In this document: positions 18,444-20,937 of the stretch, one piece after another | How the letters are laid out: every line of letters begins with the position of its first letter | Position numbering within the stretch: the first letter of the stretch is position 1 | Assembly (NCBI RefSeq): GCF_014961315.1 | Contig: NZ_CP063141.1 | Span: 1,922,001-1,986,000, forward strand | DNA from: Thermoflavifilum sp. | GTDB lineage: Bacteria > Bacteroidota > Bacteroidia > Chitinophagales > Chitinophagaceae | Length of the DNA stretch: 64,000 nucleotides | Reading direction: 5' to 3' | Notes under the pieces: model-generated | Told to the model about the DNA's origin: nothing | The model's input: only the letters and a program-made list of their open reading frames with translations | Database searches by the model: none | Position numbers and translations under genes: made by a program

Positions 18444-19622
18444 TTATGTCTGTTTCAGCATGCGTTGGATACCCATTTCCAGACCTCGCAATTCGGCCAG
18501 TCCCCTTAATCTTCCGATAGCCGAATATCCGGGGTAGGTTTTTTTATGCAGATCGTCCAACATTTGATGACCATGGTCGGGCCGCATGGGAATCGAGCGT
18601 TTCTCCTGATGCATCAGATCAACCACATTTTTCATGACGGCAAACATATCCACATCGCCATCGAGATGGTCGGCTTCATAAAAATTGCCCGCCTCCTGGC
18701 GTTTCACGTTGCGCAGGTGGAGAAAATGAATATGGCTTCCCAGCTCCTTTACCATGGCCGGCAGATCATTATCGGGGCGGGCGCCCAGTGAGCCTGTACA
18801 GAAGCAGAGACCGTTGGCCGGTGCCGGAGCGGCCTGCAACAGCGCACGAAGATGATCGGCCGTGCTGACGATACGTGGCAGACCCAGCAGGGGCCAGGGC
18901 GGATCGTCGGGATGAATGGCCAGTTGAAGGTGAAGCTCCTCGGCAACGGGAACAATTTCGCGAAGGAAATCGAACAGATGCTGCTGAAGCGTGAAAGCCT
19001 CCATGCCGGCATAGGTTTGCAATGCTTCTAAGATCTCTTCCCGCGTGAAACGACCCTCACTGCCGGGAAGCCCCAGCAGTGCATTATGGTATAACGTTTC
19101 TTTTTCCTGATCGGTCATATCCCGGAATCGACGTTCCGCACCGGCGATTTCATCGGCGGTATAATCCTGCTCGGCATGAGGGCGTTTGAGCAGAAAAAGG
19201 TCGAAAGCGATGAAAGCCAGCCGTTCGAAACGCAATGCCAGGCTGCGGTCGGGCATCGGATAGGCGATATCGGTGCGCATCCAGTCGAGTATCGGCATGA
19301 AATTATAGGTGATCACCCGTATGCCGCAGGCAGCCAGGTTGCGCAGGCTATCTTTATAATGTGCGATATATTCCCGATAACGACCGGTTTGTTTTTTAAT
19401 ATCTTCATGTACGGGCAGGCTTTCCACCACAGCCCAATGCATACCGGCGGCTGCAATTTCCCGTTGTCGTTTTTGAATCTCTTCCACGGTCCATACTTCC
19501 CCTACCGGGATATGGTGCAAGGCGGTGACTACCCCGGTACAGCCTGCCTGACGGATATCCCAGAGACTTACAGGATCATTCGGACCATACCAGCGCATGC
19601 ATTGAATGAGATGCGGAGTCAT
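18444..19622 (-). CDS. uxuA: Mannonate dehydratase
   Basis: A 392-residue enzyme that dehydrates D-mannonate to 2-keto-3-deoxygluconate in hexuronate breakdown; close to the usual length of 394. Conserved stretches include [19 protein letters not shown] at the N-terminus, [19 protein letters not shown], and [11 protein letters not shown] near the C-terminus. The frame is open to 19706, but the ATG at 19622 gives the family N-terminus. No uxuB, uxaC or kdgK lies beside it. Confidence 0.95.
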
Positions 19623-19713
19623 GGCATAGCGTTTTGAAACTGCAAAATACGCTCTAAACAAGAATGATGAACCTTCGGAGTTCAACAAAAATTGTGTAGT
19701 TTGCAATGGCTTT

Positions 19714-19790
19714 GGTCCGGTAGCTCAGCTGGATAGAGCAACAGCCTTCTAAGCTGTGGGTCATGCGTTCGAATCGCATCCGGATCACCA
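19714..19790 (+). tRNA. tRNA-Arg (anticodon UCU), intact copy
   Basis: 77 bases including encoded CCA. It folds fully: acceptor GGTCCGG with CCGGATC, D stem GCTC/GAGC, linker A26, anticodon stem ACAGC/GCTGT around CTTCTAA (anticodon TCT), T arm ATGCG-TTCGAAT-CGCAT. It decodes AGA/AGG. A near-identical second copy begins 344 bases downstream, after a GIY-YIG gene. Confidence 0.97.
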
Positions 19791-19815
19791 CACTTCACAG
19801 ACAGTACAACCTTTC

Positions 19816-20067
19816 ATGACGGATGGGTATTATGTATATGTATTGAAAAGCGAGGATTACCCCAGGTTTTATATTGGAATCACAAACGATATCCATCGCC
19901 GCCTATCCGAACACAATCAGGGGCATACCCGATCAACCCGCATGTATAGGCCCTGGCATGTAGTGTGGGTTGAAAAACATCCAGATAGAAAAGAGGCCAG
20001 AAAGCGAGAATCATATTTAAAAAGTGGCGTGGGCAGGGCGTGGATACAAAGCTTTTTGGTCCGGTAG
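19816..20067 (+). CDS. Small GIY-YIG nuclease between two tRNA-Arg copies
   Basis: An 83-residue single-domain GIY-YIG protein. YYVYVL (residues 5-10) corresponds to the GIY strand, FYIGITN (18-24) to YIG, RR at 28-29 to the catalytic arginine helix, and ARKRE with E65 to the metal-binding glutamate, followed by SYLKSG. It resembles the UPF0213/URI branch. The ATG at 19816 is preferred because the longer frame begins inside tRNA copy 1. The last codons and the TAG stop are supplied by the 5' end of tRNA copy 2. The position between duplicated tRNA genes suggests a homing-type role; a repair or housekeeping role is also possible. Confidence 0.88.
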   Translation: MTDGYYVYVLKSEDYPRFYIGITNDIHRRLSEHNQGHTRSTRMYRPWHVVWVEKHPDRKEARKRESYLKSGVGRAWIQSFLVR

Positions 20068-20153
20068 CTCAGCTGGATACCTGCCTGCCGGCAGGCAGGG
20101 AGCACAGCCTTCTAAGCTGTGGGTCATGCGTTCGAATCGCATCCGGATCACCA
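20058..20153 (+). pseudogene. Second tRNA-Arg(UCU) copy, D loop interrupted by a 20-bp palindrome
   Basis: It matches copy 1 from the acceptor stem through GGATA, and from GAGC to the CCA end, with about 50 identical bases at the 3' side. Between them lies a 20-base palindrome, and the A that should follow the D stem (position 26) is missing. The D stem GCTC/GAGC can still pair, so the transcript could fold as a tRNA with a long hairpin in the D loop. I call it a probable pseudogene; a functional odd tRNA is not excluded. Confidence 0.8.
20080..20099. repeat. Perfect 20-bp palindrome in the tRNA D loop
   Basis: CCTGCCTGCCGGCAGGCAGG equals its own reverse complement. It is a clean insertion relative to the intact tRNA copy. 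I did not notice another full copy in the window. REP-like in form. Confidence 0.9.
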
Positions 20154-20187
20154 CTCCACCCCTTGCCATACTGCATGAGGGTGTGTT

Positions 20188-20937
20188 TCATGATGATTTT
20201 ACCCTGTCAGCGTTTCCCCCTTCTTTTAAAATCTGTTTCATCTTTTTTATTTCTGCTGGATCGATCTGGGTATCCGATAGGGAGAAGGGGGCATTTTCCA
20301 GGTTCTCGAATGGTAAAGGGATAGAGGCTCCGCTATGGAACCACCGAATAGCCGTATCTTTCATCAAAGTCGGCAGATGGGATGAGCGGATGCCTCCGGC
20401 AGCGATGATCTCCAGTGCCTCGCCCGCCACATCCTGCAAATGCTGTAGCAATGGCATGCCCTCGACTGCTGTTCTTTGCTGTCCGGAGCTGAGTACATAT
20501 TGAAATCCACAGGATAAGATATCGCTGAGGGCTTTTTCGGGGTCGGGCGTCAGGTCGAATGCCCGATGAAATGTAGTTTCCATCGGCCAGGCCAGTTCCA
20601 CCAGTTGCCGACACACAGCCACATCCACCCGACGGTCGGGAAGGAGCACACCCAGCACCACGCCATCGCATCCCAGATTTTTACACAATCGAATATCGGT
20701 TTTCATGATCTCGAGCTCCGCTTCAGTGTACGAAAAATTCCCCCCGCGCGGCCGGATCATCACAAAAACCGGAATTTGAAGTCGGGCTTTGACTTGTTGA
20801 ATGGTACCCGCCGAAGGGGTCGTGCCGCCGGCATGCAGGTTATCGCACAGTTCAATGCGATCGGCTCCGGCTTCAGCAGCCAGAAGCGCACTCTGGAAAG
20901 AGTTGACGCAGGCCTCAAGCTGAATGGATGTGCGCAT
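20188..20937 (-). CDS. cutC: CutC family protein
   Basis: A 249-residue TIM-barrel protein. Family motifs are visible: QLEACVNSFQSALLAAEAGADRI shortened here to its core LEACVNS and GADRIELC, then VMIRPRGGNFSYTE, and TFHRAFD near the centre. CutC was named for copper tolerance in E. coli, a role later disputed; its reaction is not established. The frame begins at a TTG at 20943, but the ATG at 20937 is the natural start. It is convergent with the tRNA cassette. Confidence 0.93.
   Translation of the reverse strand: MRTSIQLEACVNSFQSALLAAEAGADRIELCDNLHAGGTTPSAGTIQQVKARLQIPVFVMIRPRGGNFSYTEAELEIMKTDIRLCKNLGCDGVVLGVLLPDRRVDVAVCRQLVELAWPMETTFHRAFDLTPDPEKALSDILSCGFQYVLSSGQQRTAVEGMPLLQHLQDVAGEALEIIAAGGIRSSHLPTLMKDTAIRWFHSGASIPLPFENLENAPFSLSDTQIDPAEIKKMKQILKEGGNADRVKSS

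Follow-up and report, generated by a model that had tools for sequence, protein, structure and literature searches.

A GIY-YIG nuclease gene between an intact and a hairpin-interrupted tRNA-Arg in Thermoflavifilum: a probable minimal mobile element aimed at tRNA genes

Structure of the tRNA-Arg locus

A 64,000-nucleotide stretch of a Thermoflavifilum sp. chromosome (NZ_CP063141.1, positions 1,922,001 to 1,986,000; hereafter the window) contains a tRNA-Arg(UCU) gene, a short gene for a GIY-YIG nuclease and a second copy of the same tRNA sequence. The question raised by this locus is how a nuclease gene came to lie between two copies of a tRNA gene. An initial annotation, made from the letters of the window, proposed a tRNA-targeting element that regenerates an intact tRNA on insertion. 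The parts of the locus, in window coordinates, are as follows.

19714..19790, + strand: intact, rebuilt tRNA-Arg(UCU) (ARAGORN; Rfam 66.8 bits), present as a single copy at the corresponding site of a related genome (G003); nucleotides 1-22 are native and nucleotides 23-77 were brought by the element
19736..20099, + strand: probable mobile element of 364 bp, between tRNA-Arg nucleotides 22 and 23, delimited by comparison with the empty site of G003
19816..20067, + strand: GIY-YIG nuclease gene, 83 amino acids (P0001; Pfam PF01541, E 1.1e-18; PDB relatives; AF2)
20058..20079, + strand: second copy of tRNA-Arg nucleotides 1-22, the right arm of the element (direct repeat D2, 100%)
20080..20099, + strand: perfect 20-bp palindrome CCTGCCTGCCGGCAGGCAGG in the D-loop of the second tRNA copy
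20100..20153, + strand: displaced 3' part of the original tRNA-Arg, now a pseudo-tRNA (direct repeat D1; G003 comparison)

Within the 364 bp, tRNA nucleotides 23-77 are followed by a spacer, the nuclease gene, tRNA nucleotides 1-22 and the palindrome, and the stop codon of the nuclease gene falls within the second tRNA copy. The intact tRNA-Arg(UCU) and the single 83-residue GIY-YIG gene of the initial annotation were both recovered at these positions by ARAGORN, Rfam and Pfam. The second tRNA-Arg copy described there was also found (20058-20153) but is broken by the palindrome, which had been missed, and lacks one A directly after it; as a whole, this tRNA-like sequence scored 48 bits with Rfam and was reported as 'tRNA-???' by ARAGORN. 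Because the palindrome is inserted in the second copy, the tRNA repeat has two registers, so that the period of 344 bp originally given holds for the first 25 nucleotides whereas the other 51 repeat at 363 bp. The palindrome had an expected count of 0 in shuffled sequences, and many relatives have this palindrome at an identical point of the D-loop.

Two simple readings of the second copy were rejected, namely that it is a functional tRNA, since the 20-bp palindrome splits its D-loop, and that the tRNA contains an intron. The sole Rfam family found over positions 19300-20700 was tRNA, with no group I or group II intron, and the insert is bypassed by the tRNA duplicate rather than spliced, unlike the insert of an intron- or intein-encoded homing endonuclease. 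In agreement with the initial annotation, neither an integrase nor a transposase was found in the element or among the tested neighbour genes, which encode UxuA on one side and CutC and an SDR on the other, with SecDF and a LuxE-like protein also nearby. Specifically, no tyrosine or serine integrase of the kind used by tRNA-targeting islands was present in or beside the element, and no Y1 HUH transposase of the RAYT/REP or IS200/IS605 type was present in the element or the tested neighbours; the GIY-YIG gene is the only gene of the element.

P0001 is a bare GIY-YIG domain that lacks a DNA-binding domain. Residues Y8, Y19, G21, R29, H33 and E65 were invariant across sets of 18 and 23 members, and the catalytic Tyr, Tyr-x-Gly, Arg and Glu of the GIY-YIG superfamily are all present. 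The predicted structure (AF2 pLDDT 94) was closest in the PDB to UPF0213 and SLX1, ahead of I-TevI. The median dN/dS of about 0.14 for 83 pairs indicates that the protein is under purifying selection.

Recurrence of the layout and comparison with empty sites

In a search with P0001 alone, relatives were found in 24 of 41 related genomes, and 15 of the 24 distinct loci outside the genome of origin adjoined a same-strand tRNA gene, four of the other nine being at contig ends. An 18-member profile matched in 190 of 296 Bacteroidota genomes (E 1e-10); some families may have contributed matches to UPF0213-like proteins with housekeeping roles. Because tRNA-adjacent members made up most of the GIY profile behind the wide searches, the count obtained with P0001 alone is less biased. 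A scan of 84,980 species with a tighter subset of the nuclease alignment returned 80 loci, among them loci from Ignavibacteriota, Chlorobiota, Omnitrophota and several Patescibacteria, and 71 of these adjoined a same-strand tRNA gene. After pooling and deduplication, 181 of 206 nuclease-gene clusters lay within 300 bp of a same-strand tRNA gene, with 16 isotypes represented, as against about 0.8 expected by chance from a simple calculation (45 tRNA genes in 3.5 Mb) rather than a simulation. One further cluster abuts tmRNA, and no tRNA was called alongside about 12% of clusters. A second partial copy of the same tRNA was found across the nuclease gene in 170 of the 181 clusters and contained an internal insert in 144; a hairpin of at least 7 bp was noted in 123 of 173 inserts, compared with 16 of 173 shuffled ones. 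The enrichment of homologues beside tRNA genes that the initial annotation had offered as a check was thus evident, and chance adjacency was rejected, given the recurrence of the pattern in many genomes and at two more loci in the same genome.

Units ranged in size from 295 to 450 bp with a median of 364 bp, and truncated copies in tandem arrays were almost always outermost. Only weak relatives were returned by a protein search of phage and plasmid collections, which argues against phage or plasmid carriage as the main vehicle in those collections. The palindrome CCTGCCTGCCGGCAGGCAGG was also noted in the D-arm region or anticodon arm of broken tRNAs from Patescibacteria and Omnitrophota (L199, L208, L216, L235, L244 and L252), and its occurrence in these phyla as well as in Bacteroidota hints at transfer across phyla or a common source of hairpins. 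Two other loci were unusual: at L118:1586-4385, eight nuclease genes form an array together with tRNA-Met fragments, no intact tRNA-Met being recognised beside it, and at L250:2510-3145 a group I intron match adjoins a GIY-YIG gene.

Three such loci, including that of the window, were found in the genome of origin. At locus B (C1:158.8 kb), an intact tRNA-Asp precedes a tandem array of three complete nuclease genes plus a truncated fourth, with a period of 325 bp; the genes are separated by copies of the tRNA-Asp 3' part that have the palindrome TCCCGGCTCAGCCGGGA in place of nine nucleotides. At locus C (C1:2555.6 kb), which has a period of 365, an intact tRNA-Met and its terminator precede a nuclease gene, beyond which lie an incomplete tRNA-Met bearing another hairpin and then a second nuclease gene that is truncated. 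Truncated outermost copies were at first read as decayed older units, a reading undercut by the truncated copy of locus B, which is as young as the other units; illegitimate ends formed at acquisition or amplification are an equally possible origin. More palindrome sites of the same type occur in this genome, mostly in a repeat-rich stretch at about 905-967 kb. This stretch, outside the window (C1:905000-967000; e.g., L005, L017 and L025), is dense in palindromes, with different hairpins replacing each other within the same dispersed repeat, and holds a further GIY-YIG gene (943.9 kb) with no tRNA.

Evidence of insertion came from related genomes in which the same site is empty, a comparison that the initial annotation had also called for. 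In G003, another member of the genus Thermoflavifilum, the flanking genes are as in the window and a single intact tRNA-Arg is present with no nuclease gene, which places the window insert at 19736-20099, between tRNA nucleotides 22 and 23. Similarly, in a second genus, comparison of G168 with G272 revealed a 314-bp insert exactly between nucleotides 22 and 23 of tRNA-Ala(GGC), bounded on the left by the hairpin CCCGCCCGAACGTACCGTCCGGTACGGGCGGG and on the right by tRNA nucleotides 1-22; removal of these 314 bp from the G168 sequence restored the empty sequence, the flanks of the two genomes being approximately 83% identical (348/421 and 381/452). The same tRNA-Ala insert was present in G411. 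At a tRNA-Met site in a genus of Flavobacterium type (the genus being an assignment by inference), 30 orthologous sites comprised 3 with a nuclease gene, 2 with only a hairpin scar and 25 that were empty, and of 30 sites retrieved for the tRNA-Arg locus of G068, two carried the nuclease gene, a third a tRNA fragment only, and the rest were empty. Thus, as in homing elements, insertion is into a conserved gene at a fixed site with function kept (tRNA-Ala, tRNA-Arg and tRNA-Met), and empty alleles and patchy presence are evident (25 of 30 tRNA-Met sites, G003 and most sites of the G068 locus). Both copies without a nuclease gene, the arrangement that the initial annotation had regarded as evidence against such an element, were seen at a few sites (L283 and L292), where the hairpin in the second copy is what a decayed element should leave.

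Recombination between the tRNA repeats, with precise loss of the element, would likewise yield empty sites. The direction of the change is indicated by the majority of empty sites together with a terminator swap at one locus (L265 in G283), where the broken copy is followed by the terminator that comes after the tRNA in empty relatives, and the rebuilt tRNA has another terminator, showing that the native 3' part had been pushed aside and replaced with a new one. Carriage of a replacement gene end with displacement of the native end, as in mobile ORFs (mORFs) of fungal mitochondria, was thus seen at L265 and in tRNA nucleotides 1-22 at the end of the G168 insert.

Two mirror layouts were found: at 85 loci the intact tRNA precedes the nuclease gene and the broken copy follows it, and at 96 loci the order is reversed. 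Inserts in the D-arm were on the 5' side in 68 of 75 cases and inserts in the T-arm on the 3' side in 33 of 34. Insertion into the tRNA predicts such a dependence of layout on site, since an element has to bring along whichever part of the tRNA it severs, and a shorter part costs less to carry. The window locus is among the few D-loop cases with the opposite order, and the corresponding site of two congeners, G001 (T. thermophilum) and G002, is arranged in the mirror order. Broken tRNA copies with two or three different hairpins at different loops were noted at L158, L047, L052, L100 and L162, as if invaded or protected more than once. At L095, L158, L052 and L047, broken hairpin-bearing fragments flank the tRNA on both sides, which suggests that elements of both layouts struck the same tRNA.

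Nuclease lineages keep to one tRNA isotype, as was evident from the nuclease tree, on which the isotype of the neighbouring tRNA changes 26 times, compared with 72 times for shuffled labels (minimum 69). In one case the target is tmRNA (L111:1136-1823): the nuclease gene lies behind tmRNA, and downstream of the gene the tmRNA 3' end recurs as a broken copy, its T-loop split by a hairpin and reading GGGTTC|TGCACAGCATCCCTTTGGGA|GACTCCC. Members of a related nuclease clade (L124, L146 and L171) have no tRNA and lie at another palindrome-like sequence (ATCTCACGGGGTGAGAT or CACCCCGTGAGATAG), the L171 gene seemingly inside a tyrosine recombinase gene. The hairpin, mirror layout, isotype specificity, other target sites and spread beyond Bacteroidota were all absent from the initial annotation, the central proposal of which, an element that regenerates the tRNA on insertion, is supported by the enrichment and the empty sites.

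Proposed mechanism and alternatives

These findings indicate that the locus is probably a homing-type mobile element of minimal size, with a tRNA gene as its target. The element inserted inside the tRNA gene and one complete tRNA was regenerated, because the end of the element copies the part of the tRNA that it separated; the displaced part persists in a second, hairpin-interrupted copy, the hairpin usually being at the insertion point. Cleavage of the tRNA gene by the nuclease, and homing, would account for this arrangement as follows. The GIY-YIG protein would cut an uninterrupted tRNA gene on a chromosome not yet invaded, at the position where the hairpin is later found, and the break would be repaired from the element-bearing chromosome with the tRNA parts as both homology arms, leaving a rebuilt tRNA on one side of the element. 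The hairpin would shield the spare copy from cutting and, the spare copy being so protected, the element would not be excised by a double cut. The side of the tRNA on which the element lies would match the cut, with cuts in the 5' part giving 5'-side elements and those in the 3' part giving 3'-side elements. In 5'-side elements, the nuclease gene would be transcribed from the promoter of the host tRNA; a sequence resembling Bacteroidota promoters lies upstream of the broken copy in these elements, so the nuclease gene is probably within the tRNA transcript. Tandem arrays would arise from repeated events or break-induced amplification, with which the arrays and their outermost truncated copies are consistent.

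The proposed cut site is supported by the preferred motif of the phage nuclease SegB, which is the T-loop read backwards, since many T-loop hairpins fall inside this motif (GTTC|GAAT). Against homing, the rebuilt tRNA keeps an uninterrupted site and the intact copy shows no sign of protection, being identical in G000 and G003, so an enzyme that cuts the tRNA should cut its own host too. Sequence recognition is also hard to account for, because the protein is a bare catalytic domain and its nearest relatives are UPF0213 and the structure-specific SLX1 rather than I-TevI.

The foremost alternative, a structure-guided element, is one that we consider unlikely. An SLX1-like nuclease might recognise hairpin or branched DNA and move by hairpin cutting and joining instead of sequence-specific homing, its substrates being the hairpin at the element end, the hairpin arms of tRNA and tmRNA and other palindromes, in a manner closer to the movement of REP/RAYT or IS200/IS605 elements. 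Such a process would fit the solved relatives of P0001 and its want of a DNA-binding domain, the insertion into tRNA arms with frequent replacement of the whole anticodon arm by another hairpin, the clade found at a different palindromic sequence (L124, L146 and L171) and the exchange of hairpins between dispersed repeats of the host genome. The strong tracking of tRNA isotype, however, points to sequence recognition, as does the match of T-loop sites to the SegB motif. We know of no GIY-YIG enzyme that acts as a transposase.

A locus that never moved, in which an old tandem duplication of a tRNA and a housekeeping GIY-YIG gene arose by unequal crossing-over and hairpins later entered the spare tRNA, is very improbable. 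Unequal crossing-over certainly alters copy number, and the exactness of the tandem arrays is in keeping with it, but it would not explain exact inserts inside tRNA genes, single empty sites in relatives, targets comprising 16 isotypes and tmRNA, the terminator swap or mirror layouts that track the insertion site. We attach scarcely any weight to a toxin-antidote pair, in which the protein would attack the tRNA and the hairpin-bearing copy would serve as an RNA decoy: the nuclease is closely linked with a damaged copy of the same tRNA, yet the broken copies are variable, often only one third of a tRNA, decaying and sometimes without a nuclease gene (L283 and L292), and GIY-YIG enzymes are DNA nucleases. 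Equally implausible is carriage of the nuclease as cargo by a conventional tRNA-targeting integrase, for which the sole support is that tRNA genes are classic attachment sites of tyrosine integrases, whereas the units, of about 295-450 bp, contain a single gene and have no integrase close by, and the D-loop, anticodon-arm and T-loop sites follow nuclease lineage rather than one att core.

Relation to known systems

If the preferred reading of a homing-type element is correct, then tRNA genes, which mobile DNA normally enters with an integrase, can seemingly be entered with a single domain of about 80 residues, and essential genes can be invaded repeatedly without loss because the element rebuilds them. 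Such an element would account for the small GIY-YIG genes and hairpin-bearing pseudo-tRNAs that lie alongside tRNA genes across Bacteroidota. It would also provide a natural set of nucleases, the broken copy revealing which isotype and position each one targets, and permit specific and simple cleavage experiments.

No published description of the bacterial element was found in the open-licence literature, which was the range of the search. A replacement gene end (mORFs), tRNA cutting (SegB) and GIY-YIG genes in structured RNA genes (rRNA of the Candidate Phyla Radiation, CPR) were each already known separately; no account was found in that literature of elements that unite these features in bacterial tRNA genes, in units of 295-450 bp and with a hairpin marking the second copy. 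There is a real chance that the element merits a class of its own. More tentatively, and with the balance tipped slightly to the other side, these loci could represent an undescribed class of cellular mobile elements, among the smallest with a gene of their own (approximately 300-450 bp and one nuclease of 80-90 amino acids), specialised for tRNA and tmRNA in several phyla. The near-universal tRNA sequence would supply the homology arms for crossing species, and the hairpin end would be a built-in mark of immunity or itself the substrate of recombination.

REP elements with RAYT transposases and Rickettsia palindromic elements are short, scattered palindromes inserted in genes. The element described here differs from REP/RAYT systems in having no RAYT and in the position of its palindrome, at the insertion point of a nuclease-bearing element. 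UPF0213 (YhbQ/YazA) and SLX1 proteins (1zg2, 1ywl and 7cq2) have the same single GIY-YIG catalytic domain and fold but are housekeeping or DNA-repair proteins that are not embedded in target genes.

Insertion sequences in rRNA genes of CPR bacteria, some of which encode GIY-YIG proteins, resemble the present elements in that GIY-YIG genes and short inserts without ORFs occur inside structured RNA genes of Patescibacteria (PMC11270868). They differ in being in rRNA; rebuilding of the gene from a duplicated part was not found reported for them, and evidence of homing was not seen by the authors for the GIY-YIG inserts (PMC11270868). SegB of phages T4 and T6, which together with the fungal mORFs comes nearest to the present element, is a free-standing GIY-YIG homing endonuclease that cuts phage tRNA genes, prefers the motif RAWTSGAAC and drives tandem segmental amplification (PMC13096335). 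The likeness thus extends from a GIY-YIG nuclease tied to tRNA genes to tandem amplification, whereas SegB acts in phage and not in cellular chromosomes, and neither regeneration of a tRNA from an element end nor a hairpin-marked second copy was found reported for it (PMC13096335).

The mORFs of fungal mitochondria, known for example from atp6, atp9, cox2 and nad3 of Glomus and atp6 of Allomyces, carry a replacement 3' end for the invaded gene and leave the native end downstream as a pseudo-copy, in one case with a GIY-YIG enzyme (PMC3630166). They occupy mitochondrial protein genes and have longer ORFs that usually encode LAGLIDADG enzymes (PMC3630166), whereas the element described here occupies bacterial tRNA genes, occurs in 5' as well as 3' versions and has a hairpin in the displaced copy. 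The element thus resembles an mORF in how it works, which does not by itself imply homology of the two systems.
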